A stretch of DNA of 64,000 bases from Bugula neritina. Its lineage: Eukaryota; Bryozoa; Gymnolaemata; Cheilostomatida; Bugulidae. Positions 1,945 through 63,806 of this stretch are shown here, one piece after another. The notes beneath the pieces were generated by a model. The model searched no databases, had not been told where the DNA came from, and saw only the letters and a list, made by a program, of their open reading frames with translations. The first letter of the stretch is position 1. Each line of letters opens with the position of its first letter. The stretch covers positions 22,842,819 to 22,906,818 of the forward strand of contig OZ037768.1 in NCBI GenBank assembly GCA_964035545.1. Reading direction: 5' to 3'. The position numbers and the translations under genes were made by a program.

Positions 1945-4900
1945 TTATCTGCACCTACCACTTCCTTTATCTTTATCCTTCTTTTTCTTTTTCTCTTTGT
2001 TTTTCTTTTTAGATTTGTCTTTATCCTTTTTCTTTGGCTTCTTGGCTGGTTCTGATGTTCCTTCTTCTACAAAAAGTAACCATAGCAACATGTATACATT
2101 ACCATAGCAACATGTGCATTGTCATGACAACATGTACGCATTACTATGACAACGCATGCATTACCATAGCAACATGTATACATTACTATGACACCGCATG
2201 CATTACCATAGCAACGTGTATACATTACTATGACACCGCATGCATTACCATAGCAACACGTATACATTACTATGACAACGCATATATAAATTACCATTAT
2301 CAGTACCATACAAATATTCAAGTGAGAGAGATTGTTCAATGTTGTGTGAATAATTTCTCAAAGTATTTTGTTTATAAACATGACTTTATTTCAACAGCCA
2401 AGATGAAACATCTCACAGCAGTTTTGTTTACCACAGCATTATATTGAAACAGTTTAGGAAGGGAACACGGTCTAGTGGTTAAAGCACTGGCTTAGTAAAC
2501 ACAAGGTTGGTAGTTTGAATCCCACTAAAGGCCGTTGATGATGTTAGGCGGAGCATTTGGTCATAATTGCTTTTTGTCACAATAGAAAACAAGTTCTTAG
2601 CCCGCTTTAAAAAAATTGTACCAGGGGTTCTCACAGGGACGGTGACTATAATTCATTATCAAAATTATCACAACTTTCATATGACACCTTGAGTACACAA
2701 CTCCACAACAATTATGCAGTGACTATAGCATCTCAATGAGCAGTATACTAGAAAGATAAAGCAACTCCCACTGACCCTGCACAAGAAGAGCTGGAGGTGT
2801 GGGCTTCAACTCAGATTCTTGCCGCGATCTCTTTTTAGATTTTCTTTTCTGAGGAGCAAATAACCTGTGTTGTTCGGGAAGCTGTAAGCAGTGCAAAATA
2901 AACTGGTATACTAGATATACATAGTAAGGCTCAGGTATATCAGTATATCATAAACTGGTATACTAGATATAAGAACAAGGTGGATGAGTTTACGACATGG
3001 GAGACAAATCCAATGCAGCTAAAATACAACGAGAAAAGGTGGTTATGAACCAGTGTGAGACAAGTTTTTTAAAGTTGAATATAAAAAATCAAGGGAAATA
3101 ATTACCACATTAAAACTTTGAGTTTTTTATTAAGCAAACTGCTTCTGTTGAAATGAAAGACAAATTCAGTACCATTAGCAAGAGAGAAGACAAATCTAAC
3201 AATTATAACCAGCAGAAAATAGAAGCTGTGGGTTAGACTTACTGGTCCAGGGTGTAATCTGAATCCAGCTAGCTGACTAGTACTCAGTGGGTTCAACTCC
3301 TTGCCTGTGATTGGTGGCTTTTCTATTAGAGACTTTAACGAACTGGAAAAAAGCAACAACCACCATTACATTCAATAGAGGTCTGCAGTAACATCTGCAA
3401 TAACATCTGCAGTGGCTTCTGCAGTGGCTTCTGCAGTGGCTTCTGCAGTAGCGTCTGCAATCACTTATACAGTGACATTTGCAGTAACGTCTGCAGTGAC
3501 GTCTGCAGTAACTTCTGCAGTGACTTATATAAAACTAGAAGGAGAAACAATCAGAAATAGCATTTAAACTTGACAACATAGTTCATAGAAATCATTTCGG
3601 ATTGTTTCAACACAAATGACCTTTTCATGCAGTGAAAAGCAGAAGATGAGAAATTCCAAGATGGCTGCAGATGAATAGAAAACTCAATAATAAAAAGTTA
3701 ACAGAATGACAACATAACAAAGTTGTTGATGAACATAACAATAAGAGTTCCAAAATAACAAAGTTAGTAAGCGATAAGTTGATTGGTTGAACTATAACAA
3801 GAGATAAGTTGATTGGTTGAACTATAGTAAGAGATAAGTTGATTGGGCGGTAGCATGGAATATGAGTTTACCAGGAATATTCTAGCTCTTTTAGTATTGC
3901 ATATCTCTCCCTGATTGAAGATTACATAATGATACACAAAATAGAAAGTTTATCATTGCTGCAATCTAAATGGCTATTGAAATCTACCACAAAGCAAGAA
4001 TATTGTAACATATTTGATATAAAATATAGAGTGAATGTAATTCTTTTATCTATACAATGGGTTTAATTTAGTTAAAAATTATTTTGGAAACATATTGGTT
4101 AATGACTGCTGTTTTATAATACATTAAACTAATAGCAAAGTCCTAACATAAAAACTGTCATATATTATAAAATTAGTCTTCACAATACACAAGCTGTATT
4201 ACTTGTGACATAAGGGAGCAGCCGTGGTCTAGGGGTTAGAGCATTTTGGATTAGTAAACGAAAAGTCATGAGTTCGAACCCCAGTAAAGGCCATTGGTAA
4301 TGTTAGGAAGAGCATCCAGTCATAATTGCTCCTGTGCCTCATATGAATAAATCTTAGCTCGGTTTAAAAAAAAACTTCCATCAGGGGTTTTCACAGGGAT
4401 ATCAACTATAAACTTGCGTGACAGTACTTGCTATATACTGAGAATATAATAGCCTGTGTACCCGGAGAACCCCACCTGTTATCATCGGCACTGCTGAGAT
4501 TGATGCTCCCAGGCAATGTTAACACTGAAGTTAGCTCCTCCTTCATCTTCTTACCACAGTACTTGGCGTAAGCATTCTCCAGACCGTGATAGCTGATGAG
4601 ATTCATGGAGCCAGTAACTTCTGAGGCTTCTACATATAAACAGCTTTATATCGTATCATATTGTGTTTTATATTATATCATTATACTGCATCATATTACA
4701 CTATATCATAATGTATCATATTATATCACATTATACTGTATTATACTATACATGTTTGACAAAGTACAATAGTATACTTTAAGAGTTACCACTAGGAAAG
4801 CACAGGCCATATCATAAATTAGCTAAATAAATGAAGTAAAAGTTGCTAAGTTGAGACAACTTTGTGAAATAACTAGAGTTTGAGGTTCATATATGATACA

Positions 4901-10307: not shown

Positions 10308-10371
10308 ATTTATATGTTGACTCACTGAAGGAAACAGAATTAGACTTGGCATGAGAATGGACATAGCAGAT
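10308..10371 (-). other. Possible 5' UTR exon of MED19
   Basis: On the minus strand this 64-bp segment is flanked by a good 3' splice site (TTTATTTCAG) and a good donor (GTGAGTA). MED19 exon 1 has its own 3' splice site 15 bp before the ATG, so upstream noncoding exons are expected. It could instead belong to an unrecognised transcript. Confidence 0.25.
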
Positions 10372-10776: not shown

Positions 10777-13700
10777 ATGGATAATGTGAAGAAGAAGTTT
10801 CAATCCTTTGTCAAATCAAAGGTAAGACAAATCTTTGTCTAATATTGCCAGTTAATTATGGAGTTGTTTGCTCATTTCGCTAATCTAGTAAAACTTTCCT
10901 TGAATGTAAATATATGTACATGGCAATGCTCGTCAGTATTTGCTGTAAACTATTGTTGGATTAAAATATTTTCCAAATTAGAAGGTTTTTTAGAAGATAA
11001 ATTAAACCATCTAGTTTTTAGTGCATTAGTGTAATGTATAATGTATAATACATGTGATGAAAATTTGCAATGAAGAAGCATTTTACGTTTGCTAAACTAC
11101 AGAAAGCATTTTGATTTCTACTTCCTGTAAAATGTTTTAGTTTTATATTTTATTTATTGCATTTCAGGCTTCCACCACTAGTCTTGGCAGTGACCAAGAT
11201 ATAAATCACTCCTCCTTTGGGGGAGACGCTGTCATTGCTATTCACAAGTTCAAGGAGCACATAACAGAATCTCAAGACCCTCGGATAGACCAGGAGAATA
11301 TCGACAGCATAGAGAAGGTTTATTTCAACTCTGATGACAGTTTTGACTCCAGCGAGTATGAACTAAAGGCATGTAATAGTTCCTCTATCGGTGAAAACTC
11401 TAAGACGTAATATTTTCCTCACTCTGTTGAGAAGCAGTCTTTGGTTTGCTGTGAATTTAGATGAATAATTGTGTCACCTCATCAAAATAATGTTTAATTA
11501 CCTGACTTAAAACCCTTATCTATGCGACATGGTGATTGAGTTGTGTATTTATCAGGCAGCTTTTGTTCATATTCTACTTCACTAATATGTTTGGTCCCAA
11601 TATCTACCCTCAATACACTAGACTATTTCTTAAAGTGAGGCTTCGGACTACAAAACGCTAAAATGAATAAAAACAGGATTTTCGGCAGAGTACAACTGTT
11701 GTGTATAGCTCCCCTGCCTCTAAGTCTCACAATATAATATTTTGTTTGAAAGTTGTGTCACAGGAAATTTATTGAATTAATACGAAAGGTTGGTTTAAAA
11801 TGCAGTCTTTCCAAAATTTCATATTGTTTTCCAATTTCAATTAGAACATGTTTACGAGAAAATTCCATTTTGGTATGAGTAGGAATTTGAATTTCAGCTC
11901 ATGATTTTCTGATCCGTATTGTAATAGTTTATATATTTTAGAGTTTTTTTTAGAAAATAGAAAGTGGTGTACGCCAGGAGCAGATTGAAGTTCGGAGAGC
12001 CCTGTTGAAAAAACAGTTGAAATCGGTGAGCAAAGTCAACTTAATTTTTATCTAGTTAGAAAACTAAACCAATGTTTAGAGGGTCTTATCTTCATGACAA
12101 AAATTGAAGAGTTATTTTAAATTTACAGTAAGGTATAAAACTGTAAAAGCAAAGTCCCTGTTGTTTGGGTTCCAATACTTGCAATTAGTTGCCAAATACA
12201 CGTAATATATTGTATTGTCTCCTAACTCAACCCTTCTCTATCTGGAGTTGTATTACTGCAGGTTTCTAAGAGAGTGTCGGAGTTGATTCTAGAGAACCAC
12301 CCGGCGTATGCTACAGAGTTGAGGAGGGTCATGGAGCTGCAGGAGTCACTGAATGTGGCTCTGGATATCTGCACTGACAGCAGATCGTGAGTCTCATTGG
12401 TCACCTTTTCAGCCAATCATTGCCTAGGTCTTTGTCTATAGTTTAGCCAGTACTTTAGTGCTACTTGTTGATAATCTACACCATCTGTTAGCATGCTTGG
12501 TTAGGTAATAATGGAGAAGATGAAATACACTTTTAGTTGTAGGCTACTCTGAGCGCCCGACAAGGAGATTAAGTCGTGTCAAGCTGGTAGCACACAAATT
12601 TAGGGTTTCGTGCAGTTGGAAAATTCAATGAACCGTGACATGTAAACCACCAGGCATTGGTAACTCGTGTCAATGTTAAACAACCAGCTAAGCATTTCAC
12701 TTATTCACTAAATAATTTTTTCACAAGGGGAACTACAAGATTTTCATTGTTCTTGTGTGGTAGCTTTGTAACTGAAAAGGCAATTTCGAAATAGATATAA
12801 TTTTTTACCAAAGAGTATAGTGCTTGTGGTTTGTCAACGCCACTTACTGCATTTATCTCACCCTGCAGAGTGTAGAGAATGCAGCCGGGTAGGGACTACC
12901 CCTTAGATACAGTTTTCATTTTGTCATCACTCTTCTCTCTTCTCTTCTAGGTTTAGTCAGTAAATCCAGGCTTCAATATGGTTATTACATTTTATATCTT
13001 ATTAATGCAAAACCCTGCTTCTCAGTTGCATTATTTAATCAACATAAGTTATGTTATTTCAATCATATAGTAGTGCTGTGTTTTAAATATCTGGTAGTTG
13101 TCAATTGTTTTTTTCTTTAGAAAAAGGCTATATAGTCCAAGTACTTTTGTGTTTTTAAAATAAGTTAATTTAAAATTATTTCTGTTCATTTGTGTTTATT
13201 ATCAGTACAACGAAATTATTTCATGAGCGTTTCCACTCTGCCCTTCATTCACATCACATCAACCCTTTAAATTTGGTGAAACACAACATTTTGCTGCTAC
13301 ACAGTGTATGTACTCGCTATTCATGCCCATATTTCGTGGTTGACAAGTGCATAATATTGAGTTCTAGAAAATTTATATATTAAATAAAGTAATATATCAT
13401 AAATTTTATATTATGGTGTCTAACGGTGTCTATCAGAATAATAAACTATGTATATTGTAGTACTAGGTTATGTATATTGTAGTACTAGGTTATGTATATT
13501 GTAGTACTAGGTTATGTATATTGTAGTACTAGGTTATGTATATTGTAGTACTAGGTTATGTATATTGTAGTACTAGGTTATGTATATTGTAGTACTAGGT
13601 TATGTATATTGTAGTACTAGGTTATGTATATTGTAGTAGCAAATTACATATCATAACAATAAATGCTGTATATATTTATGTATATCTAATTTTCCAGCTC

Positions 13701-16700
13701 ACTTCAGAACTCTCGGAAAGAGTTCACTACTGCCAGTCTGCTGATGTTAGCCAATCACCGCAAGAGGCAGCAGCTACAGGGACTCATGCGCTCTCTCAGG
13801 ACTATAAAGACTTTACAGAGAACTGACGTGAGACTGAGAGAAATGCTTGAGGTACGTACTCTATATCAGCATTGAGCTCTACTCTGTATCAGCACTGAGC
13901 TCTACTCTATACCAGCACTGAGTTCTATTCTATACCAGCATTGAGCTCTACTCTGTATCAGCATTGAGCTCTACTCTGTATCAGCATTGAGCTCTACTCT
14001 GTATCAGCATTGAGCTCTACTCTGTATCAGCACTGAGCTCTACTCTATACCAGCACTGAGTTCTATTCTATACCAGCATTGAGCTCTACTCTGTATCAAC
14101 ACTGAGTTCTATTCTATACCAGCATTGAGCTCTACTCTGTATCAGCATTGAGATCTACTCTATACCAGCATTGAGCGCTACTCACTGCTGTGATATACTA
14201 ATGTCTATTAGTATAATTAGTGAATATAGCTGTAGAATTCATTGCAGAAAGGGTTTAATATTACTGGCTATTCTTTAAAGTTGCTTAGAGAAATGATTGA
14301 AAAGTTCTGCTTACTTCAAATGTTAGTGGGTGTCATTTGTTCATATAGCGTTGTTGATCTTATTTTAGGGTACTTTTTGCAACAGAAAAAGGCTGCTATT
14401 ATTTCCCTTGTAATACTTTATACTAAATGCTTCAATATCAACAATATTTATTGAGAGCAGCTCGAAGATTTGTAATGTAATGCTTTCCTGTATGTTATTA
14501 GAAGGAAGATTATGCTGGCGCCATTGAACTGGGCTTGGAGTGTCAGAAAGCTGCCACCATATTCCGCCACTACAAATGTATAAGGTATTACTTTAGTTGG
14601 CTTCAGCTGAAAGTGCTGTAGTGTTTAAATCTTGTGTCAAAGCATGATACAGTTGTAACTATTGCCAGTATACTTGTTGTGCGTGCCTCTACTATATTTT
14701 GGAATGTTTGTACATAGATTCTTATAGTGGACATCAGATTTTTAAACATTTAGTACTAATAGATTTGTGGACAACTTTTGGGAAAGTAGTTACCAGCAAA
14801 CTAGAGTGAAATATAAATTTGCATTGAATATAGTAATAATATCAAACACTCACATTTAGTATATCAAACACTTTCATTTAGCACATCAAACACTCATATT
14901 TAGCATCTTAAACATTCATATTTTAGGCACAATAGATGTGTAACATATTTTAAATCGACACTGGGCATATATTTCAGGGCTCTACATCACATTTTATTTG
15001 AATTAAACTAATGAAAATGTTACATAAACTTAAGTTTTAAATTTATGTAGGAAAGTTTTTTGAAAAACAAATACTAATGTGACTTCAGTTGTGTTCTCAG
15101 ATTGATTATTAATTCTATTTAATTTAATGAAACTTAGTAATAAGGAGTTGAATTAAAAGGAATTTTATCTTAATTGTGTATCACATGCCTAAAATCTATT
15201 TGTGTTAGTTGTCTGACCTTATGTATCACCATGGCAGTCACTGTTGAGTAAGGGGACATAACTCTCTGTATGTCGGTTGCTAAAATTGCTAGATGTCAAT
15301 TGCCTTCAAATTTACGGTCACTTTAAAAATTTTTATTTAAGCAACGAGCAATTTTTTAAAAAAAGAAGCAACTTGAAATTTTTCTTCTGCAAACTTTAAC
15401 CGTTGGAAAATTTCAAGTAGCTGATTCATTCAGAGTGATCGCAGAGCTGAGTGGGGAGACTCGCTCATCGTTCTACTTGCTATGTAAACAAATGAGAATT
15501 AATAATAGAACGGGACTTGTGCATCATATGATCAGTTTTTCTGCTGCCCGGTATTTGCACACAGTAGTGTGCTCAACTTCATAGATCTGCGAGATTCTTC
15601 AGCTGACATTGGAATGTCGCCCTTCTCTCAACAATGGTGAGCGTTGTGTATTTTATTTTGCAGTAAAACTTGAAACTGTGTTGTTTTCTTGTCCAGGTTG
15701 TGAATAAACTCCCTGGAATAAGTTATACTGTTTAATGTTAGCAGACCCGAGTATCTTTAGACTACTCAATAAATAAACAAATACAACAAATCAAGTTGTA
15801 AGTAAAACTGAAAGTAGATCTTATTGCTCTATTCAATTTTAAAATTTAGCATTTCTTTAGTAAAGCATTAAAAACCTCATCAAGTACAATGTTGAAAAGT
15901 TTTGAAATAAAGTTTATGCAACAGTATACAAAAAAGGAGTTGGTTTACAACTTTTCACTTCTACATTTTCATTACAGTCCTCTATTTTTTGTAATGCACT
16001 TAGCAAATTTTAAGCTTTCTAATTATGTAATGGAATATAATAGATGACATTTAAGTATTGAAACTTAAATTCTCATGTTATAGAACTCAATGATAAGAAA
16101 TCTGAAGAGTAAAAGTATTATGGGGAAGCGCGTCAGACTCGAGGCCAACAGTAATCAGGAAGTTAGACGAGACTTTTGTGATAAACTAGAAATGAATCTG
16201 AACTTAAAACCTTCATTTGACATCCAATCAAATTTTCTGCAAAAAGGTGAACAATTATTAAACAACGACTTTCAATTGCATAGAAAATTTAATTTTATGA
16301 AATATTTACTTAAATGACTGTTCAAAATGAGGTGATAGCTTATTTAAATGTTATGGGTATTATAATTATATTCTACAATAATTATTTTGAATTTCATTTA
16401 TTCCCCAATATATTTTTACAGAGCAAGTTGGTTATAGCAGAAATTCAGAATTAAAATATTCCAAGCTGCCGTCTAAGCATAGATCAAAATTTTCTCGGTC
16501 TCATAGAGAGCAACTTTACATTTCTAAATGTAAAACTTGTGGCTTTAAATTCAAGACTCACCAATCACACTTTTGCCAGGTATCAAGTAAGGAGGCAAGG
16601 TCTGTCTTGGAACATTTAAAGATGGTTCATTCTGGTCACACTGGACAAAGATCTGGGCTGAACTTTTCAAAAGCAAGAAATCCATTTATGAACTTACAAA

Positions 16701-47200: not shown

Positions 47201-50200
47201 ATTCTTGCATGCCTTTCATATGTTCAAATTAAGTTGATTCAAATTAAAGCAGCAATTTTACAAAATTGACCTTCATGACATGACAACCTTTTGAAGACTA
47301 AATTAATAGACCCTCTTGACATTTAATAACACGCTAGAATAAACTTTGTACAACTAGTTGCTGGCCATTTATTGTCCACTCTGGTTGCCTACTTAAGCAA
47401 TTTGCTTTTATTTTTATCTTTGACCATTTCTGGGTTGCCTTGAAAAGTTACATGAAAGAAAAAGTTGGGGGCAACAATTATTCTTTCCTTCAAAAAGTAG
47501 TGGTTGACAATTCCTACTTTTGCCCTCCTAGATCAAAATAAATTTATATCTTGGTAGCTTTGAATTTGAGAACAGGATATCTATTCAGATGTAGATGGAA
47601 TGAGTCACTACTGCCTACCAAGACGTACTACTTTGACTTGAAATAAATGTACCATTCACTAGCTTGCAGTAGACACAAAGTAAACTGAAATGCTATGGTC
47701 TGCTTGTAGATTGAGCTACAGAGTGAATACCTAAGTGCCGGAACGAGCAGCGGCAGCGGTGCTAATCAGACCCTCTTCGCCGAGAAGGTGAAGAAGAGCC
47801 AAGACGCCATACAGAAAGGAGATTTCAACTCTGCCGTGTCTCACTATTCAGATGCCATCAAACTCGATCCTGTAAGTTGATTCGTTGAATTTCAGTAACA
47901 ACTGATTTCATTGGTTTGCCTGTCTTATCACAGGAGCTGGAGACAATGGTTAGTACAATGACTAAAATAATGTTTTTTTATTGGTGTTTCCTTTTTATCA
48001 ATCAAGCTGTGTAACGAGGCAGGGGATAATTAAGTTGACAGAACACTTGTGTTGCTGGTAGAGAGTGGAACATGTCATTTCTTCTGTTTGGTTGGCTAGC
48101 TGTATACAGCTTACAACTTTCATTTCCTATTTTAATGCTAAATCGTGTCTTTATACATTAGAGAAAAGCTGAGTGCTCGTGCGTTGGAGGGATTAAATAG
48201 GCATGCCATGTGTTCTTAATCTCCTAATGAAGAAACTCTGGCGCCAGCATGGTTTTTCTGGGACTCTAACCCACAAGTTGTGATGTGCACAATTTACCTG
48301 AAGCTAGTTGTGTACAGTTTACCTGAAGCTAGTAGTGCACAGTTTACCTGGAGCTAGTTGTGTGATGTAATCACTTTTGTTGTAGGTGAATCATATACTG
48401 TACAGCAACCGTTCGGCAGCCTACGTCAAACTTGGTCAGCACGAGAAAGCTCTGGCCGACGCTCTCAAGGCCAAAGAACTAGACTCATCATGGCCCAAGG
48501 TTTGCTTCTCTCTTCTGCTGTTAGTTGACCTGGTGGACAGTGTAACGGTTGGCTGTCTGGAGGTTTGATAACTCTGGGCCACAAATAGACTTGAGTTCAA
48601 ACAGCTGGATAAGGGGATACAATGAACCTGTTTATTTGGCCACTTATCGTTGACTGTGGCTAAGTTTTGCTTGTATTTTATCATATAAAAACATTTTCAT
48701 AACTTTGTTTGCTAGAAAAAATGTTATCAGTTACATAGTAAAACAGTTAAACAGTCACAGAGTTACAAAGTTACAGAGTGAAACAGTTACAAAGTTACAT
48801 GGTTACAGTATCAACTACTTGTAGTATGCATGTGTAGTGCAGAGTACAGTTCACACGGTTTTATCTGTTTCACCAGTAAACTGGCAGTTTATCTGTACAC
48901 TGGCTAGTCTAATTATACACTATTAGTGGTTGGGCATGGCTTGGTGTGGTTTGCTGTCAGTTAGTGAATATTGTTATAAATTATACAGTCCAGTTTCTGT
49001 ATCAGTCAGTCCTAGACAACCTGACACTACAGAACTGGACACACAGTGGCCGTGGCTGTCCATCAATCATGTCTGGTGGTCATAATCTCCCACTAATCTC
49101 TCCTATGAGTTCACCGTTAACTGTTCTCTTTACTACTATCAATAGGTCTAGTGGTAAATTACAACTATAACACAATGATTACCTTTCATTTTCATGCACA
49201 AATTCAAACAGCGTTAATTCACCCCTTTGATACCTCATTTCACGGTAATTTCCTTTTGTATACCAGCTATTGAATAGAATTTGGGCCACTTTTACAACCC
49301 ACTAAATTATCGATAATATTTGACTGCATTTTATGCTGAAATACAAACAAAAGCTTAGCCAGTTGATTAAGATGTTTGCAGCTAATGAGTGTGAATTATA
49401 TTCGCACTTTCCACTGTTGGTTGACCCCTGATAACAAGCACGGTTGGTCGTAGTGGAAGTAACTTTAGCTAGTCAGGCCAGAGGGTGCAATTTCTACAGT
49501 ATAAAATAGGCTCATCAAAAGCGAGTGTATATTGAATTACCCAGTGACACTGCACTGTTTACTTAGAAAGCAATATATTTGTCATCACTTTGTGTAGATG
49601 TGTGTTGGCTACTGTAAAAGCTAACTATTTGTTTATTACCTCCCAGTTCAGCTGCTCTAAGTTAGTGAAATATCAAGTAATCTCTCCTAGTAGGTGGCTT
49701 TCAAGTGCTTTTAAATCATGAATAATTGAATTTTAAAAACTGTGTCCCAAAATCTTTATTAAATTGGATGTTAGAAAAGAAAAAAAATCATGTAATTTGA
49801 AAACATTCTACTCTTTAGGTTGTGAAGGCAGTTTGTATTCCTTATTTTGACAATTTTTTATGTTTTGAACTGCCAAAGCCTCTGTTTCACTTTGTTTTCA
49901 TATGGTTGACAACTCCGAAACAATTGAAATGTTCAAAAAATCCTTTCCGTTATCTCAACTACACTAACAAGTTCTATGCACTTGCGTTAGTAAGTTTGGT
50001 ATTAATTCTATTTTCTTCAATATGCTTGACTAGTAATTCATTTGCCGTATTAATGACACGACACGCTATTTATGCCCTTTATTTTGATACAATACTATAA
50101 CTACTTGAAATTCAGACCCCAGATGTGTCCTATGCTTCAATTGAATAAGTTGTAGTTTAAATACTCCAGTTACATTACATTCTATATAATTGGATTGTGT

Positions 50201-53200
50201 TATTATAATTATTTTCTGGCATCAAGCCACAAGTTATTGAAAGCTGTAACAGCTCAGCAGTGAATAAACCATGCAATAGCCTAATCTGCATTAGCTATGC
50301 TTGTCCTTTTCAATCTGGTGTTATATTCTGCCATACTCAAATGTAAATGGTCCAAAACATAAAATCAAAATGATTAATTATGTAATTTCAGTAAAACAAA
50401 TATTTTTAAATTATAATTTAAATTATTAATGCTCAAAGAGGTGTAGATATTTGACTGCCTTAGCTGTTAGTCTTCCAAGTGAAAAATAGTCAAATGTGGG
50501 GGTGTTGGGGGGGGGTGTTGGGGGGGGGTGTTGGTGCATATCCTGTAAGATACTGACATTTCAGTGAAAATATCTGATGCATTGACATTGTGTTTTGTAG
50601 CCACCTATAAACACCCATTCTAATCAGCAAGAACTTTGTTTGGAGTGTATACATTATAAAGACTGAAAATACTATTGCAATAGCCTGAGGCTGCCATTGT
50701 GTTTCTATTGCATTGAATATCCACATGATTTATTAAAATCTTATTTGCATAATGGATTAGATTTTCACATAAAAGGGATAATTGCTGCAAATATTTATGA
50801 CTTTGTTCTGTGCTGGAATATAATTCATTCAGTTATGTGCAAATCAGCCCGAGGCAACAGAAAATCCTCAAAGGTTCTAGAAAATACCATGAAACTGCAG
50901 TATAATATGTATAATGTATAATGATTCATGGCGTCTGATGGTGTATTGCAGGCTTTCTACAGAGAGGGAATTGCGCTGCAATGTTTAGGACGGTTTGCTG
51001 ACGCTCTGGCAGCATTTGCTGCCGGCCTAGCCTTGGATTCAAAGAGTGCTCAATTATTAGGCGGGCTGGTTGATGCAGCATCGCGGTCGCCCCTCAAAGG
51101 TATGGATGTTGCCAGACTAAAGTATAATTAGATATTTACTAGGTTATATACAATGTGGGCCCTAATTACAATTTAATTAATTCTTATGCAATTTATATGA
51201 ATAAAGTGTACTATGGTGTCGTGGCTTAAGATGTAGTAATCCGATTCTATGAGTGATCTCTCCACCACTTTCTCTAGAGCTCTATGATTATGTTGTATCT
51301 AGTCCTAGTCAAAACATAACGTACAACTATTAACTGCATTGGTACAGCTAGAGACTATATAATATTTGAATTAGGAATCAGCACCACTATTTTCTTTCCT
51401 CTAAATTAAGAGAGTAGATAAGTCTGCACCTGGGTATTTAAATTCAAAACTTTCATGAGCTTTTACCACGAAATTCTCAATGGATCACTTTTCAACACAA
51501 TTTCTGCAAAGCACACGTGCATGCAATTAAATAAGGAATAGAATAGCAGTCGTCTGCAGCTATGCTATGAATTCTGGGAATGTGCCAAAGCAGTAGAGCT
51601 AATAGGGTCTGAATTTCGTGACTTTGTTGTCAACAAAATTATTGCCACCAAACTTTATCTATAAATGATTAGATGTGGCATGCAGTCAGCAGTAATGGCA
51701 GCATGCTATTCCTTTACCTTGAAACACAAAATGATTGTTTAATTACTTAGCTTCACTCTGCCAGTCTCACTCTTCCAGTCTCACTTTTTCAGCCTCACTC
51801 ACTCAGTCTCACTCAGTCTCACTCAGTCTCACTCACTCAGTCTCACTCATTCAGTCTCACTCACTCAGTTTCACTCCCTCCGTCTCACTCAGTCAGTTGC
51901 ACTCAGTTAATCTCACTAACCCAGTCTCACTCTATCATTCTCACTCACTCACTCACTCAGTTTCACTCACTCAGTCAGTTTCACTCACTCAGTTCCACTC
52001 CCTCCGTCTCACTCAGTCAGTTGCACTCAGTTAGTCTCACTAACTCAGTCTCACTCTATCATTCTCGCTCACTCTCTCAGTAGCATTTTCCAATTCACGA
52101 GTCACTCAATGGTAAATCTTTTAAACCTTTGAAACTCATCCCAGTAAGGAAAACTTAGGATAGTAGACAATAGACAATAGAAGCATAATTAGTAATATTA
52201 TATTCCATAATTTATTATTTAAGGTAGATTTATGGCATTTAAACTGCTATCAAAGAAAAGTAGACAGTACCTCTAAACTAAATCCCAATTTCAAACTTAC
52301 TAATACAACAGATTACATATAATATCTACCTCTGCATCTACCTTTACATTTCTCTTCTGCATTCAATTATTTTTAAAATTCTCTGAAACATGAAAATCTA
52401 TAAAGAGAAAAATTATTATTTTCTACGATGGCTCCTCCATGGAAATATTAAACCAAGTGCTGTAATCAAGCACAGCTGCAATTTGCACAAGTTTTGTGTA
52501 ATTTTAGAAGCATAGAGTCTGGGGAGAATATGTAGATAAGTTTGTAACTATTAATTGAATTGGAAATGTTATACACTGGCTAATTTGTGCGGTGAATAAA
52601 TGTCATGTAAACTTGTAATCATATAAAATTATCTAAATGAACAAAAATGAAATAGAATAACAAGAAACGTCTGCACTGGTTTTTCTGCATATAAACCTGC
52701 CTTAAATATTTTGCTAGTAGTGATGCAAATTTTTTTCTGAAACTACACATGAGTTAAATGTAGACTTGTTTGATGCGGGATTTTAATTACAGTAATTATA
52801 TTAATTTTTAACTGATTTTAATAAAAATTATGTAGATGATGAGTATATTTAAATATAAAAATAAAGTTCCACGGTGACATATACCCAAGTAGTGTTTTGG
52901 ACAAAATCAATAGAAGTATTCTTTATTTTAAATGGATATGTCTAATTTTGCTGTCTTTAGTATTTCTCAGTTTCATAGACTCATGTTTTGTATGTATAGA
53001 AAAAATGTAGATAGTGTATAGATAATGTGAGGAAAGTATATAGCTGGTGTCTAATTATTATTATGTATACTATAGAGTGTGTAAAAGGTTTGTAGATAAT
53101 GTATATAGAGTATAGAAAGCATTTAGGTAGAGTATGTAGAAGGTATAACAGAGAGTATATAGAAGGTATAACAGAGAGTATATAGAATGTATAACCGAGA

Positions 53201-56200
53201 GTATATAGAAGGTATAACAGAGAGTATATAGAAGGTATAACAGAGAGTATATAGAAGGTATAACAGAGAGTATATAGAAAGTATAACAGAGAGTATATAA
53301 AAGGTATAACAGAGAGCATCTAGAAGGTATAACAGAGAGTATATAGAAGGTATAACAGAGAGTATATAGAATGTATAACAGAGAGTATATAGAAGGTATA
53401 ACAGAGAGTATATAGAAGGTATAACAGAGAGTATATAGAAGGTATAACAGAGAGTATATAGAAAGTATAACAGAGAGTATATAAAAGGTATAACAGAGAG
53501 CATCTAGAAGGTATAACAGAGAGTATATAGAAGGTATAACAGAGAGTATATAGAAGGTATAACAGAGAGTATATAGAAAGTATAACAGAGAGTATATAGG
53601 AACTATTTACACAGAAACCACCTATTACTACATAATTTACTGATACATATAAGATCAATAACTCAATACAACACAATCTCAGATATGCACTTAGAATCTT
53701 CCTCTTAGGTCAGGTAACTGTTTGATGCCATTTCTATTAGCTGTCCACTCATGCATAATCTTCTTATACAATATATCACCTGATGCTACAGTCAGATTAC
53801 TCTCTATTCTATACTCTCTGTTCTATACTCTCTGTTCTATACTCTCTATTCTATACAATAGCAATTATGTAAACTTAACATTGGGTGTCTTGTTCTTCTT
53901 CACCTCTTCTAATAATTGTTATTCTAAATTATAAACTTTATACTGTAAATTTATGTTAATTAAAGCAGTTTTTGTCTGCTTGAAGCTCAAATATGAATTG
54001 ATATTAAAATTTATTCCTGCACGAACTTTGTGCTAAACTCTGCCACCCATGATGCCTCAACCTGTTCCCTCCCTCCCTACGTTCCCTCCCCTCTGCTACG
54101 TTTCACCTGCTATTGGTTTTGGTTAAGTGCTTATTTTCAAGTAGAATAACCAGTTGCAGTGTATTTCAAACTGTTGCTGCTTTACTCCAGATGTAACTGT
54201 TTTTATTAACTCATAATATCAAAACTTGTCTTCAGGTTTAAGTATTTGTACAGCTATTCAAACTTAATCAGGTCGATTGTGTTTGTCAGTATCTCCTGTA
54301 AGCTAGGTCTAAGTTCTTTGTATGAGTTCTTCTAATATTCTATAGTATTCCATAGCGCTATTCAGCTTTACTGTTATTATTCTCTGTAAATACTATGCTG
54401 AATGCAAGATTTAGAAGTGAAAGACTAGTCATTCCTATGAAATCATGAATAGGAATGCATCCTTAGCAGTTTTCTTTCCAATGTAGTGTATTCTAATCAT
54501 TTTTTATTGTGACTTGCTTCTACAAATTTTTAGCTGTTTTTGAAAAACTTGGTATTGAGAAAAATTACTATGAGTTTTTAGTATAGCAAGTAGCAGATAT
54601 TTGGATTGTATTATAATATAACTTTGAATAAAGCCGATTGGCTGATGATAAAGCTGCAGACGACTCAGTTGCAATGCTACTTGTAAGACTTCCCGCATTG
54701 TTTCAGTCCTGGCAAACCATGTTGTTATCTTGTAGTATGCAAAACAATGTAGTAGTAGTAATAGTCGGATTTTCTAAAAATAGAGGCTTCACTTACTATA
54801 CTGTATGTTACCCTAATGTCTGGCTATATGTTACATAACCAGTAATAATATTTATATATATAATATTGATTTGTTATTAAAACAAGTCTCACCTAACAGG
54901 TGTTGCTGCCAATGTCACCAGATGCCAGTGTGTGTATTTATTAGAGATTAAACTCTACTTGATGGAACTGATATAAGTTTCAGTTCATTATGTAAATCTA
55001 TAGCCAGCTAATTATTGTCAACCCGTTACTTTGTTTCAGCTCGATTCTCGCCCACATATCAACAGCTCCGCTCAATGAAACTCGACAAAAATGCTTTTGT
55101 TATCATCTCAGTGATTGGCCAAGACTTGCTAGCGTGCAACTACCATGCTGCCTCTGTGGTGGTCTTGGAATCAGCTCTGCTTATCGGAACTTGTAGTCTG
55201 AAGTTGCGGGGCAGTGTGTTCTCTGCCCTCAGTAGTGCTCATTGGGGGCTCAAGAACTGCGACCAGGCTATTTCTTACATGCAGAAGGATTTGTCTGTTG
55301 CTAAATCCCTGGGTGAGTTTTCTACTAGTAGTATTAGTAGTACTAGTAGTACTACTAATACTAGTAGTACTAGTAGTAGTAGTACTAGTAGTAGTATTAG
55401 TAGTAGTACTAGTAGTAGTAATAGTAATAGTACTAGTAGTAGTAGTGGTAGTACTAGTAGTAGTAGTGGTAGTAGTAGTAGTGGTAGTGGTAGTGGCAGT
55501 GGTAGTAGCACTGGTAGTAGTAGTAATGGTAGTAGTAGTACTGGTAGTAGTAGTACTAGTAGTAGTAGTAGTAGTAGTAGTAGCAGTAGCAGTATTAGTA
55601 GCAGTAGTATTAGTAGTAGTAGTATTAGTAGTAGTGTTATTAGTAGTGTTATTAGTAGTACAGATTGTTAAATGTCAATTTATCAAACACCAACTTACCA
55701 TGTGACCACAATGTTACATAATCAGCAGACAATAAAGTGAAAATCTGTGAGAAACTTCTCTGTCATTCATTATTTGGTTGCTTGGACTGATAGCTGCTTC
55801 TATTAGTGTTGTAATGTTGATATATTACAGTGCTCCCTCATATCTCTGAAACCTCAATTTATGTCATAGTAGAATACCAGATTCAACTAATGGATTAGTT
55901 ACATTCGGCCATTTTGTCTCTATTAGTCTATAAGCGCACACATAAGCCACATACCAGGCCCAAACCCTTCTAGAATTTCGTGGGATATGGAGGAAGCACT
56001 GTAATATTATTATATTGCTGTAGATGATTTTATGTCTCAGTGAATTTATTAATTTTTGAAAGTGCATTTTGCTGTGAGGCTCAAAATAAGGAAAAAAGAG
56101 TTTAACTTGAGGTAAATTATACGATATTACATTAGGTGAAAGAGTTGTGTTAATGATAATTTGGAAAGACAACTCCTACTTAGTCTATGCTGACTTTTAG

Positions 56201-59200
56201 CCTCTATTGAGTTTTGCTGACTTTGTACACAGTTGTGCTGAACTGAGAAAAGCAAAGAACTACAAACAAGTGGCTAAGCATCAGTATTTTAGCATTTTGA
56301 GAATTCTTTCACTAATTTTTGGTTCTGTGTTGTTAGTATATGTGACACTTGGTAATTTCGGTATCACTTTTGCTAAAAGAAAACATTTAGTATACTGTGG
56401 CATCACATGAAATTTTAATAAAATTAGGAAAATCTTACAGATACCAATTAAAGGAAAACTACATACTAACCCAGTACTAGTACATGTTTATAACTTTGGT
56501 TATACTAAAATATACTCTCTCTTCATCATTTAAAATAACTAGTTGAAATGTTTAGCAATAACACAATGATATGTTTTGTGACTTCGAGTCTAATGAAAGC
56601 TTTAATGGGTTCATTGTTTTCACCGAGTGTTCATAGCTTTATTCACCTCCCATCATAAACTGACTTAGCCTGACATTCTTATAACGGTAATATGTTTTAG
56701 TACGGGTGGTGTGACCGCGAACCTAACAGCTGCTGTCACATGGCTCTGTGAACTTACTGTGTTGTTATTATTGTAATAGTCCACCACACGATATACACTA
56801 TACACTATACACACGCAGCAGTAGTGACATTCTATAGCTTGCAGTAGGCACGACTGCTGCCTGACATTTGGCATCTTTGACCCCGTGTTTGCAGGTTACA
56901 TCAACAGCTTCTCTACTCGCTATTCAGTCATACTTTAGCTTCTCTCTCTGCTCCATCTACTTTGCTACGTCTTGAAGAGTTTAATTTATTTTATACTATT
57001 TTCAATATTTTGTAATTCATTCATGTTTTTGTTGTTGGAATTTTTTGTGTAAGTTTTGTTGGTGTTGTGCCAAATAGCTAGATAACATCTGCTGAGTATA
57101 TTATTATTGCATTTCACCAAGACCTCTTCAAACTCTCTCTACAGATGATGAAGAAGGTGAGGCAAGAGCTCATGGTAACCTAGGATCTGCGTACTTCTCC
57201 AGAGGTAACTATCGGGAGGCATTGAACAACCACCGCCGGCAGTTGAAGTTGGCGATGAAACTTAAGCTAAGTTCTACAGCATCGACAGCACTGAGTAACT
57301 TGGGTCACGTTTACACGGCTATCGGTGACTACCCCAATGCTCTAGCCAGCCACAAACAGTGTGTGCTGCTCGTCAAACAGTCTACGGACAAGCTGTGGGA
57401 GGCGAGGGAAATCGGTAAGTCTTGTTGAACTTCTAGCCACTCACTCGAGCTACCAGAAGTATTGGATAATGGCCCATAAATTAACTTTTCTGGCAGTTGA
57501 ATTTACATTTTGACTTTTTCATGTGGATTACCAGCCTTTGAAGTCATTGAGTAACTTTGCTGAGTACTTGAAACTGATTACCTAGTTTATTGGGAGAAGA
57601 AGCTCTTTGGGGTTGGAGAGACAATTCTGATGACTGTATTTGAATGTTTGGGTCAGAAATGGTAGTGGTCTACTTGGTAGTCTGTTTTGCCCCAGTTAGA
57701 CTCGACCCACGCCTACATACCTCAGACTTAGCAACTGCTAGTCATTCTTACGTCATCTTCAAGGAATATATTATGTAATCTGATTAAAATTGTAAAACCA
57801 GGTTGTAATTTTTTGCATAATTTCTTTAAATAAGCAAATTTTATACTTTACAAAAAATTGAAAAGTTCAAATCTCCACCTGCATGGGTTTTTATTTCCTT
57901 TGAATAGTGTGAGAAAGTTTATCCATATCAGGGAATGGTGTGCATTGATCTACCATGTGTGTATTAGTATTAGTTGTATTAGTATTTAATTCTTTATTCT
58001 TAACTCCATTAACCAATTTTTGATAATATCAATATGCCCTGCAGGAAATGAAAAACTAAAATGTTTTAAGTTCGATGCAAGTTACAGTGAGCAGTGATTT
58101 GCCTTTTAATAAATAATAAAATATTTATAGTAAAATTTGTTTAATGCTAAATATCTCACAAAATACAAAATATTCACTTATGTTACTAAAACCAGTAAAA
58201 TTTTATTTTAGAAGTAGAGTTTAATATATCATCTTTTCACATCCTATATTTTTACGTCACACAATGACTCATTAGTACAACTAGGCTTCCAATGATGTCT
58301 AATAAATGTGAGAAACAATGACCTCAAATCCCGTTTTAAGGATGAGAATTTTGTTATCGGGATATGATGAAAGGTTTAGTGTTATTATTTTGCCATCTGC
58401 AGGTAATGTTGGCGCTGTGTACACTGCCATGGGTGACTTTGCCAATGCTCTAGAATGCCATAATGAACATTTAAAGATAGCCCGAGAATCTGGTGAAAAG
58501 ATGGAGGAGGCGCGGGCACTGAGTAACCTGGGCAGTGCCCACCACTACAACCGAGACTACGACAAGGCCATCAACTATCACCTGCAGGTCTTACAAGTCT
58601 CTCAACAACTCACGGACAAAACTCTAGAGGCTCGGGCGTACGCCGGCTTAGGGCACGCCGCCCGAGCTCAAAACAATTTATCTAAGGCTAAGGTGTACCA
58701 CGAGAAGCAACTGGATAATGCGTTACAAACCAAAGACAAAGCCGCCGAGAGTAGAGCGTGTTCCAATATCGGAATTGTCTACCACCAGTTGGGGGAGTAC
58801 GACGCCGCCCTTAAACTGCATAAAAAACATTTGAGTATAGCGAAGAATCTGGGTGACAGAACTAGTCAAGGAAGGGCTTATGGTAATATTGGTAACGCCT
58901 ACAGTGCCCTGTGCCAACACGAGGAGGCAATCAAGTTCCACAAACAGGAGCTGGCCATCTCCAAAGAAGTGAGTAGTGCAATACTTCAGTCACTTGTTGC
59001 CTCATAAATAACAATAAAGTGACAATAGATTTGTTGGTAGGAAGTTATGTTAGACTGTGGTCTTTGCTGTAAAATCACTGGTTAAATTTGGACATTTTAT
59101 TCTTACTGTTTATAAGAACTAGAGCTAGTTGTGGTAGGATCTCAGCCTAAGATTTGTGAACCAGGGGGGGGGGGGTGGTGGTGGTACCTGTTGTTGAGCT

Positions 59201-62200
59201 GCTCGACAATTAAGGGAAGGATTAACACTTGCTAAATCCAGTTCACCAGGGCTTAGAAACTCTCACTGTGACATGTAATATGCTGGCATTTCACTCCAGT
59301 CTACTATAATGTGGAAATTCAGTTTTCAACTTGTTGTAGTTGTAATTAAATCCTTTTTTTGGCTGAAAATTTTTTTCTGGTTGCTTTTTTGCTGTAAGTC
59401 ATGGCTTCAATGATTCATCTTTTTAAAAATGAAGTGCCAAGAAATAGTTAGCTTGAGCTTCTCAACTCTTATGGCGATTTGTCTTGGAATTTGGGCTACA
59501 AACTCAGTGAATATTTTACAACATTTAAAATAAAATTGCGACACTCCCTGTTGTTTACTTGGTGGTGTCACTCATAGTTGCTCTAAGACGCACCTGACCA
59601 AACTAACCCACTTTGACTGCCCTTTTGTTCTCCACATTCCTGCCCGGGTCTCACAGTGTAGTCAAATCGATTTGTTTGGAGCAATTAAGTGATTTCTATT
59701 GATTTTTACTAAAATAAACTATTGTTTACTGTTGTTTTCTGAGAAGCAGTTAATGATGGCCGGTGCACTGCGTGCAGTTGGTTTGTTTTTGTTGCAGCGA
59801 ATTTTCAAAAACAATAGAGTGGATAATTCTTAAAAGATGCTATGATTTTCAGTGTTGATTTTTATGAAATGCATTTCTGGTTGCTTACTGAAAGCTAATG
59901 TTTCTTTTCCAAACAGCGAGAGTTGATTTGAGTCGAGTGTCACATCTACTTGTATTTAAACTGAAAATAAGGAATTCACGGCCATTGGCGTCTGTACGTC
60001 ACGTGTTGACTGATATATTTACTTTTTTATATTTATCTGTCGTGTATTTTGGTGATTTTGGCCTGCTATATTTATCTGTTTGTTGTTGTAAAACTATTTA
60101 TATTTTTGTTTATTGATATTCACTGGGAAAAAACTTGATGGGAAAAAGTTGGTAGCTTCACCAGTTCCGGTTGAGCAGCTGTTATCACTAAACTCCCAGA
60201 GATGGTGTTTATGTCTTGCATTTCATCAAATTCTCAACTCTTTTAAACAATCCGTCAAAATTCACTCAGAAATTTCTGGAAGCCCAAGTTTATTTGTCCT
60301 CTGCCCTGATTTGTAATGTTTGTGGATTGTTTCTGTAAACATTATGGTTGTCTGCTACATAGGTCAGCGATAAACACTCTGAGGCATCCACTCACGGTAA
60401 CTTAGCTGTTGCATACCAGGCGTTGGGTATGTTCGAGCAAGCCTTGCAGCATTACAACGCCCACCTCAACATAGCCCGGGATCTGAAGGATATTGCCAGT
60501 GAGGCACGCGCCCTCAGCAATGTCGGTAACTACTACAGTGTGAGGGGGGAGTTCACTCAGGCCGTTCCTTTCTACATGCAGTACCTCCAGGTTGGTGAAA
60601 TATTGTACAGGATGTGTACTGTTGCATTCTGGTACACAGGATGTCCACTGTGGCATTCTTGTCCGCAAGATGTCCAGTATTGCATTCTGGTCTACTTTTA
60701 AAGCAACATTTTAATTAATCTATTTCACTAGAAACTGTAAAAATTGTGCCGAAAAGTCTGTATATGGTGAGATAAGGGATTGCAAATATTCAAATACTTA
60801 CGTTAGCCCTGATGTGTATATATACTATGTATAGTGTGTATATATACTATGTATAGTGTGTATATATACTATGTATAGTGTGTATATATACTATGTATAG
60901 TGTGTATATATACTATGTATAGTGTGTATATATACTATGTATAGTGTGTATATATACTATGTATAGTGTGTATATATACTATGTATAGTGAGTATATATA
61001 CTATGTATAGTGTGTATATATACTATGTATAGTGTGTATATATACTATGTATAGTGTGTATATATACTATGTATAGTGTGTATATATACTATGTATAATG
61101 TGTATATATATACTATGTATAGTGTGTATATATACTATGTATAGTGTGTATATATACTATGTATAGTGTGTATATATACTATGTATAGTGTGTATATATA
61201 CTATGTATAGTGTGTATATATACTATGTATAGTGTGTATATATACTATGTATATAAAACATATTCTATGCAATTCATAGTTGAGTCAAGAGCTGACGGAC
61301 TCCGAGGGGGAGGCTAGGGCGTGCCACTGTCTGGGATTCGCCCACTACTCTCTTGGAAGTTACAGGGAGGCTATCAGATATTACGAACAAGATTTAGCTT
61401 TAGCCAAAGATCTTAAAGATCAACTGACAATGGCTCGGGCGTACTGTAACCTGGGCCTAGCTTATAAGTCACTAGGACAATACTCTCAGGCACTGGAGTA
61501 CCAGTACAACTTCCTTCAAATCACTCATACCCTCCGGAATATTCCGGGAAAGTTCCGAGCTATGGGCAACATCGGAGATATTCTAATCAACATGCAGAAC
61601 ATGCAGGAGGCAGTTCTACTCTACAATCAGCAACTCAAGTTGGCCAAGCAGGTGAGAGGTCATTGTACTGGGCTCTGGAGTTCGCTGGAATAACATTCAA
61701 GTTTTATGATAATTTTATGATAATAATAACCATAGTTGCATTTTAAAAAAAAAAGAATTTAATTCAACGTTATTGTTAAAAACCAACTTTTAAGAGAATA
61801 TTAATTTTATGTAACCTCTGTTGACTCCCTTCTCATTTGTTATTCATAAAATATTCAACGTAAGATAGAAACTGGAATAACAGTTGGAGTGCTTCTTTAC
61901 AAATAAGGTTAGCCAATCAGGGTGTATATAACACCATGTTTATATAATAATGTATTTATTCCAAATATTGGGAAATTATGTAAGCAGCGAGTTTTCTGGC
62001 TTGCTGAATAACTTGAAGGTGTGTTAGTCACTTGTAGGGTTTCACTGTCTTCAATGTAGCTCATCCCTTCCATAGCCAACCTTTCAGCCATTATATCCAC
62101 CCTTTCACTCACTAAATCGGCCATCTTTTCACCCATTAAAGCAGTCATCTTTTCACCTGTAAAAGCAGCCATCTTTTCACCAGTTAGAGCAGCCATCTCT

Positions 62201-63806
62201 TTGCCCATTATATCCACATATTCATCCATTAAATTCCTTTTTCCCAGTTTGTTTATTATAAGATATGATCTCGGTTTTATTGGCCATCAACTCACTGCTC
62301 AGGTATGAATGCCAGAAACCCTCACAGTAGATAAGCTCTTCACTAATTACATTCCTTTCCTAATCCTCACTCTGAAAATCTTGCAATCCTACATCTAAGA
62401 TTTCACCATTATGTCCATGTAGTTGTACTTTTGAGTTTAACTTATCTACTTAAAAATTAAACCACCATTTGAGATATAATGTTCTTGCAATGTCACCACT
62501 ACTAAGGTTTTCACTTTTCACTTGCCTGTATCGTGCAAAGCTCAAAGTTCAGGCAGTATATTGGCTTGTTATACTGTCTTTGTTCTTTCCCCAAACTGGG
62601 CTGAGTTTTTGACTTTTTTGAAATGAGTTATTTACAATCTTTGGGTCAAAGGTCAATCAGCTGACTCTTCACACGAGTTTATCATCAGCTGAGAGAGTTT
62701 AACTTGGCATCCCACAATGGCTGGATGACATTCAACTATTTCAAATTTTTAATTGTTAACCAAGTTATTTTAATTAAAAGAGGAATTTTCTATATCTGAA
62801 AGTGGCAAAAAATTTTGAAATCTACAACCCATTTTACAGAATACTTTCTTCTAAGACATTCGATTTGTGATTTTTATTCACATCGAGTTATAAAGGCACA
62901 ACCTTGCTAATTATAAACATTATAGCGTATTACATACTTACAGTGTAAATATCTCATACAGTATAAGTTGAAATTATAATTTCTGCTGGTTGTTTCTAAT
63001 TTTGACACTTACTTTAGGCCAATGATCATTCACTGGAGGCAGCGGCTTATGGGGCCTTAGGCATTGCTCACCGAATTATGGGGCAGTATGACAAGGCCCT
63101 CGGCTTTCACACTCAGGAACTCAATCTACGCCAGGAACTGAACGATCTCCGAGGTGAATGCAAAGCTCACGGCAACTTGGGGAATGTACACGTCTCTCTA
63201 GGCAACTATATACAGGGTTACAAGGTAAGTACAGTTTATATACTTACTCTCAGAAACTATATACAGGGTTACAAGGTAAGTACAGTTGATATACTTACTC
63301 TAGGCAACTATATACAGGGTTACAAGGTAAGTACAGTATATATACTTACTCTCAGAAACTATATACAGGGTTACAAGGTAAGTACAGTTTATATAATTAT
63401 TGACAAGGTACATGTATTTCGTGTGTTGAAACTTGTGACGATAAACTAAAATGTTGATAATATTCAAAGCTTTAAGCGTTCCATGCAGTGTTTGTTTTTT
63501 ATTTAATGTGAAGCAAATAGTGTACTTTCAATGTTTATTGGTATAATCTCCCCTGTCACTCTACAACCTAGAATCATCTCCCCTGTCACCATCTATATAA
63601 CATAGAGTAATCTCCCCTGTCACCATCTATAGCTTGAGAATGTTATTATACAGTGCTACGAGGAGCAGCTGGAGAGAGCGAGAGAGGTGAAGGACTCGAG
63701 TATTGAAGCCCAGGCTTGCGGTAACCTTGGCATTACAAAGATAAACATGTCCCAATACGAGGAGGCTATTGGCCTGTTTGAACAGCAACTGGCCATGTTA
63801 GAGCAG
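44214..63806 (+). CDS. TTC28: Tetratricopeptide repeat protein 28, N-terminal part (3' partial)
   Basis: TTC28 is a very large TPR protein ending in a CHAT domain, linked in vertebrates to midzone organisation and cytokinesis. Exons: 44214-44258, 47710-47871, 48386-48499, 50952-51099, 55040-55312, 57145-57414, 58403-58968, 60363-60590, 61280-61651, 63018-63224, 63654-63806, then beyond the window. All phases close: 2538 nt, 846 aa. A first TPR triplet (VNHILYSNRSAAYVKLGQHE) leads to a linker typical of TTC28 (SPTYQQLRSMKLDKNAFV, IGTCSLKLRGSVFSALSSAH). Long 40-residue GNLG-type TPRs follow (ARAHGNLGSAYFSRGNYREA, SNLGHVYTAIGDYPNALASH, ASTHGNLAVAYQALGMFEQA). The CHAT domain is not yet reached. 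Exon 1 (15 codons) is supported only by ATG, donor and phase; the rest is secure. Confidence 0.93.
44280..44960. repeat. Low-complexity (ATTATCATTATGA) tract, TTC28 intron 1
   Basis: Degenerate TATCATTATGAT, GACTATCACTATGAGTAT and inverse forms recur for about 700 bp just after TTC28 exon 1. The remainder of intron 1 to 47709 shows nothing recognised except a somewhat GC-richer patch at about 46930-47150. Confidence 0.55.
48300..48368. repeat. 25-bp tandem repeat x3, TTC28 intron 2
   Basis: CAGTTTACCTGAAGCTAGTT units repeat three times, ending about 20 bp before the exon 3 acceptor (exon starts at 48386). Confidence 0.75.
50497..50534 (+). other. G-run tract with G-quadruplex potential
   Basis: GGGGG-TGTT-G9-TGTT-G9-TGTTGG lies in TTC28 intron 3: three very long G runs with 4-nt spacers, one of which can supply two strands of a quadruplex. 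Confidence 0.55.
51760..52080. repeat. CTCACTCAGT minisatellite, TTC28 intron 4
   Basis: Short units CACTCACTCAGTCT with longer-order duplication (a block from about 51870 recurs at about 51990). The Ser/Leu-rich frame through it is an artefact. Confidence 0.85.
53115..53605. repeat. 23-bp minisatellite x about 20, TTC28 intron 4
   Basis: Near-perfect AGAGAGTATATAGAAGGTAT+AAC units. Because 23 is not a multiple of three and the unit lacks minus-strand stops, all three minus frames are open, giving repetitive Tyr/Leu/Ser-rich pseudo-proteins that are not genes. A higher-order duplication is visible (53250-53320 resembles 53430-53500). Confidence 0.95.
55316..55665. repeat. (AGT)n trinucleotide array, TTC28 intron 5
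   Basis: AGTAGTACTAGTAGT runs for about 345 bp starting within about 10 bp of the exon 5 donor (intron starts at 55313). Read-through would add poly-Ser in frame +1. Confidence 0.95.
60812..61256. repeat. 22-bp minisatellite x about 20, TTC28 intron 8
   Basis: Almost perfect TATATATACTATGTATAGTG+TG units. The array ends about 24 bp before the exon 9 acceptor (CATTCATAG-type; exon starts at 61280). Confidence 0.95.
61909..62229 (-). other. Repetitive minus-strand open frame in TTC28 intron 9
   Basis: A 106-aa frame from MDEYVDIM contains four imperfect 8-residue repeats (GEKMAALT, GEKMAAFT, GEKMTALM, GEKMADLV), encoded by a 24-bp tandem repeat, then VSERVDIMAERLAMEG. The repeats would form an amphipathic helix. 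There is no clear splice site or neighbour gene, and I do not recognise it. It could be a remnant of a mobile element or a chance frame over a repeat whose length is divisible by three. Confidence 0.25.
63190..63395 (+). repeat. 51-bp tandem repeat x4 spanning the TTC28 exon 10 donor
   Basis: The unit (GGCAACTATATACAGGGTTA CAAG|GTAAGTACAG and about 17 more bases) contains the last codons of exon 10 and its splice donor. Donors lie at 63225, 63276, 63327 and 63378, each 51 bp apart and identical over GGTTACAAG|GTAAGTACAG. The unit is 17 codons with no in-frame stop. Confidence 0.95.
63541..63635. repeat. Tandem repeat x3 (AATCTCCCCTGTCACCATCTA), TTC28 intron 10
   Basis: Three copies of a roughly 35-45 bp unit end about 20 bp before the exon 11 acceptor (exon starts at 63654). 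Confidence 0.75.

Follow-up and report, generated by a model that had tools for sequence, protein, structure and literature searches.

Minisatellites whose repeat unit straddles a border between exon and intron, the so-called 'mirage' minisatellites, have been described in amphioxus, where two reports place them in Adh3, the globin genes BflGb6 and BflGb9, TnC and PGBD5 (PMC3087553, PMC3902484). According to the same reports, these arrays span either the 5' or the 3' exon-intron boundary, have units of variable length and contain AG or GT in many of their copies (PMC3087553, PMC3902484). Reverse transcription PCR suggested normal splicing at such sites, and mirages are presented there gene by gene in amphioxus, as a feature possibly general to cephalochordates (PMC3087553). 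Here, a stretch of 64,000 bp from the bryozoan Bugula neritina (hereafter the window; G000:C4:22842819-22906818 in a genome of 215.8 Mb), which contains the genes MED19, VPS50 and TTC28, was analyzed for tandem arrays lying against splice sites, and comparisons within the window and elsewhere in the genome suggest that this genome is probably rich in mirage minisatellites.

The bryozoan arrays resemble amphioxus mirages in spanning the boundary, in occurring at both 5' and 3' sites and in keeping AG or GT in many copies. Both boundary types are duplicated in B. neritina, with many donor cases and one clear acceptor case (VPS50, 29592). Since the three features examined match, the junction-carrying arrays can be regarded as mirages in another phylum. 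On the other hand, unlike what these sources describe for amphioxus, the bryozoan arrays occur at many loci, show a strong donor bias and make up almost all of at least one intron.

Two other systems offer partial parallels. Intron gain by tandem duplication of AG/GT segments is credited in one report to Rogers, Zhuo et al., and Gao and Lynch (PMC3087553). The bryozoan arrays are similar to this process, as it is outlined there, in that a segment with a splice signal is duplicated in tandem and could supply new introns, whereas they differ in that they sit at introns, old or new, rather than creating a new intron within an exon. In Caenorhabditis elegans, the intronic minisatellite CeRep25B is reported to be over-represented near alternatively spliced regions (PMC4039745). 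In contrast to CeRep25B, which appears there as one family with splicing-regulator motifs, the bryozoan units are many, unrelated to each other and derived from the splice site beside which they lie. Among the matches listed in the open-licence literature, none described arrays of this kind in a bryozoan, which has little bearing on priority because bryozoans were seldom targeted and subscription journals lie mostly outside it.

Repeat units that carry a splice junction

Tandem arrays were called with Tandem Repeats Finder (TRF), and those with a unit of at least 8 bp and a TRF score of at least 100 were considered strong. The initial annotation had described an array spanning the donor of TTC28 exon 10, and TRF together with spliced alignment bore this out: four copies of a 51-bp unit (63196..63399, +) cover the donor, and the unit is made up of the last 21 nt of the exon, GTAAGT and the intron start. 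The sequence TACAGGGTTACAAGGTAAGTACAG recurs in the four copies at a spacing of exactly 51 bp, the coding exon (63018..63224, +; aligned with the homologues P0121 and P0122, with a start at 63043 for P0122) ends in the first copy, and the frame is open across the array (63018-63449). At the other type of boundary, an array of ten copies with 16/21-bp units (29592..29773, +; TRF and alignment) spans an acceptor of VPS50 with a gap of 0. Every unit contains CATAG/ACTGAG (the slash marking the border), which comprises the 3' splice site and the first six exon bases, and AG is kept in 10/10 copies.

By comparing the array copies off the border with their own border and with other junctions, a test in which 43 arrays were reported, resemblance to the own junction was found in four of the 15 near-splice arrays of the window, three of them clear and one weak. 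The match reached 24 at the TTC28 donor (63224/63225), 20 at the VPS50 acceptor (29768) and 12 at the last VPS50 acceptor, where a 17-bp array with partial junction similarity ends 3 bp upstream (35236..35562, +; sliding test and junction comparison), and none of these values was reached by any control junction. The weak case, a 23-bp unit repeated 14 times and starting 5 bp after a VPS50 donor (13857..14183, +; sliding test and junction comparison), gave a match of 9 to the donor at 13851, which was reached by 1.8% of the controls. Moreover, the best donor-like signal was stronger in sense in 6/8 donor-side arrays.

A whole-genome pattern search, which recorded occurrences of a word and tandem pairs (the word again 18-48 bp later), extended this donor signal. 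The donor word AAGGTAAGT gave 3,101 occurrences and 576 tandem pairs, whereas its mirror TGAATGGAA gave 2,537 occurrences and 12 pairs, and AAGCTAAGT, in which one base of the GT is changed, 2,193 occurrences and 8 pairs; the donor word is found in tandem about 40 times more often than either. Because array copies enter both counts, loci were counted as well: on C1 and C2, which make up about one third of the genome, the donor pairs fall into 19 loci, whereas the rate of the mirror word (4 loci in the whole genome) would predict 1.3. A single satellite or transposon family was rejected as the source, as the units of these 19 loci differ, by eye, outside the searched word. A second donor word, CAGGTAAGT, gave two clustered loci among the first 100 matches listed. 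Rough rates for composition-matched words were 0.07% and 0.6% in the blocks sampled elsewhere in the genome (described below), compared with 2% and 21% in the window itself, where arrays are abundant.

The 19 loci and two wider clusters, 21 loci in all, were read over about 600 bp or more, and in 14 of them the array lay either at the end of a coding exon or no more than about 30 bp from it. A coding score of at least 8 up to the first donor was seen in 9/21 loci (p=0.0004), against a background in which 12% of 480 strong donor-like sites from the blocks, some of them real exon ends, reach this score. Three further loci were placed by homology (kynureninase, HYR domain and ArgRS), and L035 and L047 were placed once degenerate first copies were allowed, the L047 array lying about 20 bp into the intron. 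The exons reaching the array matched TRRAP (E 1e-13), kynureninase (1e-14), ArgRS (1e-5), trehalase (3e-17) and HYR (3e-7), and the TRRAP and trehalase matches confirm two of the nine score-placed loci; the exon of L029 had no match in PDB or Pfam. In the 12 loci that were assigned to exon ends by coding score or by homology, the second copy also reproduces 6-31 nt of the sequence preceding the donor, with no more than two mismatches, the lowest values being near chance. GT was present in each copy, as read, at L029 (11 copies), L035 (5), L039 (3) and L044 (3).

Similar arrays occur in the sampled blocks. At 9654-9994 of block B3, an exon end with GTAAGT is repeated seven times, with GT in 7/7 copies, in a gene that we take to be astacin-like, and at 3971-4015 of block B4 an exon end and its donor are duplicated as two copies of 21 bp with an open frame. 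The boundary-spanning arrays thus comprise those of TTC28 (63196-63399), VPS50 (29592-29773), B3 (9654-9994), B4 (3971-4015), L029, L030, L033, L039, L044 and L046, and the two-copy cases are L030, L033 and the one in B4. Another intron in the blocks, of 862 bp, consists of one 21-bp repeat over 858 bp, and its functional donor makes up the first copy of 41, in register with the others and fitting the unit at 14/19 positions; the gene is presumably a receptor guanylate cyclase.

A separate array was observed at L030, in the first 200 bases of the minus strand of G000:C1:569100-569800. This 27-bp array lies directly before the acceptor of the kynureninase exon and has CTAGCAG/GTAAAT or GTGAAT in each unit, and the short exon is thus flanked by arrays on both sides.

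Placement of arrays relative to splice sites

The placement test was based on the coding exons of three genes in the window: VPS50 (syndetin; 10777..35745, +), by spliced alignment to the Watersipora homologue P0001; a TTC28-like gene (47722..63811, +), by spliced alignment to P0121 and P0122; and MED19 (1959..4629, -), by a PDB match to MED19 and the reading frame. The VPS50 protein shares 68% identity with its counterpart in the cheilostome bryozoan Watersipora subatra and at most 51% with the other matches listed, which by itself points to a cheilostome bryozoan as the most likely source. A third TTC28 homologue, P0123, was discarded for poor alignment, and a doubtful 27-bp VPS50 exon (18762-18788) was removed, which left 34 introns of 81-6707 bp with a median of 670 bp. 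Among the strong arrays, 23 are intronic and were tested, and two lie outside introns; the array at 4670-4750, which the initial annotation had assigned to MED19 intron 1, is outside the intron set and was left out of the count.

Each array was moved within its own intron and the distance to the nearest splice site was recorded. The initial annotation had claimed that most arrays of the window lie within about 60 bp of an exon, and this clustering at splice sites was confirmed: 15/23 arrays were at most 60 bp from a splice site vs 5.7 expected, 12/23 were at most 25 bp away vs 3.0 expected, and the median gap was 24 bp vs 150 expected. The observed clustering was matched by at most 1 in 20,000 simulations and persisted under 16/16 threshold settings. 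Low-scoring repeats (TRF 50-99) showed no splice-site bias, with 1/5 near in the window introns, and 4/17 near vs 2.8 expected when window and blocks were pooled. The near-splice positions originally listed for arrays in MED19, VPS50 and TTC28 also agree with the exons used here. The statement that only a few arrays lie far from exons did not hold, as 8/23 are far; it had named two intronic ones and left out the other six. The argument that the introns are too long for chance stands in so far as there is an excess over chance, and falls short in that intron lengths are mixed (median 670 bp); with such lengths, chance alone would account for about one third of the near-exon arrays observed.

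Further near-splice arrays in VPS50 (all +) comprise three that precede acceptors, namely one with a 22-bp unit and no junction similarity (13447..13638; distance 59 bp), one with a 17-bp unit (28925..29210; 17 bp) and an AT-rich one (33864..34067; 10 bp), as well as one with a 19-bp unit that follows a donor at a distance of 28 bp (27737..27853). MED19 (-) has two arrays upstream of acceptors, with units of 42 bp (2079..2283) and 12/24 bp (3382..3526), at distances of 12 and 39 bp, respectively. In TTC28 (+), arrays of 25 bp (48284..48362), 22 bp (60813..61255) and 34 bp (63543..63631) lie 23, 24 and 22 bp before acceptors, respectively, and a TAG-rich array (55326..55660) and a 29-bp array (60607..60691) lie 13 and 16 bp after donors. 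Two short-unit arrays (32781-32838 and 19954-20175) are 29 and 23 bp from exons. The counter-examples include arrays at 53129..53599 (+) and 51762..52074 (+), which are 1,440 and 662 bp from the nearest exon, and the additional far arrays are those at 3769, 14839, 33220, 48729, 53798 and 62103.

Four 50-kb blocks (B1-B4) were also sampled elsewhere in the genome, with exons modeled ab initio by a gene finder that had learned from the homology exons and was run with the intron cost set to -11.0. At two neighboring settings before self-training, the finder recovered 28 and 27 exons with both ends correct from a training set of 37, while predicting 47 and 39 exons in the training genes; weak priors gave a surplus of tiny exons and strong priors gave under-prediction, and both were set aside. 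The astacin-like donor in B3 was moved by hand to GTAAGT for the placement test, and block B5 was excluded from it as a single 20-bp satellite. A junction match in B3 (25764-25818, donor match 13) was left uncounted because it involves a doubtful short intron. The blocks contain 14 intronic strong arrays and 5 outside introns, and 7/14 of the intronic ones were at most 60 bp from a splice site vs 4.4 expected (p=0.04).

Origin of the arrays and competing explanations

The arrangement of these units suggests the following course of events. A duplication of about 15-50 bp would take in the exon end together with the donor GT and the bases that begin the intron, or in fewer cases an acceptor, and such a first event may be an ordinary one based on microhomology or slippage. 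Where the units contain exon ends, a tandem duplication across the border at the DNA level is implied, and as the gene must work, one copy must still be spliced. This working splice site would probably be the single, border-proximal copy, and the others would become intronic passengers that multiply through slippage or unequal exchange and then drift. The two-copy cases are the first step of this series, and the arrays of 4-41 copies are its expansion. The preference for donors could reflect either more births or better retention. The near-splice arrays without junction similarity may be old mirages, some of them perhaps shifted, or survivors in quiet exon flanks.

Several results weigh against the view that mirages account for the arrays. 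No resemblance to the junction was seen in 11/15 near-splice arrays of the window, the other four resembling theirs, one of them weakly. Dropping these four leaves the clustering in place (11/19 vs 3.6 expected), and junction duplication therefore cannot be its whole cause. GT is lost from the copies of the 13857 array and AG from those of the 35236 array, both in VPS50. Moreover, the weakest match (13857, 1.8%) is equalled by that of an interior array (33220, acceptor, 1.8%) and may thus be due to chance among 43 arrays. Acceptor-like signals were stronger in sense in 5/12 acceptor-side arrays and in antisense in 7/12, and the idea that these arrays are built of acceptor signals was rejected; 3/3 arrays near both sites have a stronger antisense donor signal. 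The acceptor word TTTTACAGG showed a small tandem excess, with 17 pairs among 3,186 occurrences vs 2 among 1,890 for its mirror (p=0.016), and seven of the 21 donor-word loci (L031, L034, L036, L040, L041, L042 and L045) were not placed at an exon. The window was chosen for its striking look, and its array density is about four times that of the blocks (25 in 64 kb vs 19 in 200 kb). The distance comparison elsewhere in the genome, which the initial annotation had proposed, gave the trend reported above for four blocks, whereas B1-B3 alone had 5/11 arrays near vs 4.2 expected (p=0.36), B4 being the block whose gene models were judged poorest; placement bias on ab initio exons was replicated weakly. 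In summary of both sides, the suggestion of repeat birth at splice signals, or tolerance of extra ones, is supported at donors by the tandem excess, the 14/21 loci at exon ends and the GT kept in the clear arrays, and it finds weak support at acceptors (17/3186 vs 2/1890 pairs; 5 sense vs 7 antisense).

The near-splice arrays lacking a junction could be explained by a survivorship effect, under which arrays would arise anywhere but would be broken in intron interiors by insertions and indels, and purifying selection would keep the exon-flanking tens of bases quiet. At least one long intron here harbors a retroelement-like open reading frame (ORF; 21246-26258). As an account of the whole pattern this effect is possible but rather unlikely, since it fails on the approximately 40-fold tandem excess of the intact donor word over the one-base variant and on units that extend into the exon. 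The same contrast bears on the idea that GTAAGT-type sequence is intrinsically duplication-prone and splicing is irrelevant. The seven donor-word loci not placed at an exon, found in about one third of the genome, already outnumber the whole-genome loci of the mirror (4) or of AAGCTAAGT (3), but the remaining 14/21 loci are at exon ends, units hold unrelated exon sequence, the effect vanishes with one base change, and some of the seven may begin with degenerate copies, which turned out to be the case for L035 and L047; sequence instability of this type is therefore improbable.

Chance in short introns, where arrays in a few hundred bases would often be near an exon anyway, is very improbable as the explanation. 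The median intron is 670 bp, and chance yields 5.7/23 arrays within 60 bp and fits the placement in B1-B3, but it is contradicted in the window by the observed 15/23 and by the arrays with at least 300 bp of free room, of which 8/16 were near vs 2.0 expected with junction arrays excluded; the word counts are also independent of intron length. Positive selection, by which duplications would be retained because extra identical donors aid splicing efficiency or make isoforms, appears quite improbable as well. In its favor, the copies examined in the clear donor and acceptor arrays retain GT or AG, and some units leave the frame open (TTC28, 51 bp; L030, 33 bp; B4, 21 bp). Unit lengths, on the other hand, were not enriched for multiples of three (7/17, p=0.33), so that selection of units as multiples of three was dropped, and this speaks against a coding or isoform role. 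Read-through at L029 meets a stop at once, the VPS50 copies at 13857 and 35236 are without GT or AG, and recent homogenization would preserve GT without selection.

A stronger version of the mirage interpretation, which we advance tentatively and consider doubtful, is that used donors are hotspots of tandem duplication via a transcription- or splicing-linked process and do not simply tolerate extra copies, that a few percent of strong donors have arrays and that introns steadily grow, or are even built anew, out of duplicates of the splice sites at their own ends. The presence of mirages in a bryozoan, together with the approximately forty-fold donor-word excess, suggests either a shared mutational route or a repeated origin. 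Such arrays are natural constructs with 2-11 near-identical splice sites in series (41 in one looser array), and they offer a way to test which of several equal sites the spliceosome selects and how tandem duplication makes introns grow or arise.

Other features of the window and the genome

Upstream of MED19, exons at 55-1108 (+) of the window presumably belong to an innexin-like gene. Inside the 6.7-kb intron of VPS50, a retroelement polyprotein-like ORF of about 1,670 uninterrupted codons was found on the minus strand (21246-26258). Outside the window, 50 kb in the middle of a chromosome (G000:C2:18000001-18050000; L024-L028) consist wholly of one 20-bp satellite, ACTGAAATATACTGTAACAT, which is a candidate for the centromere.

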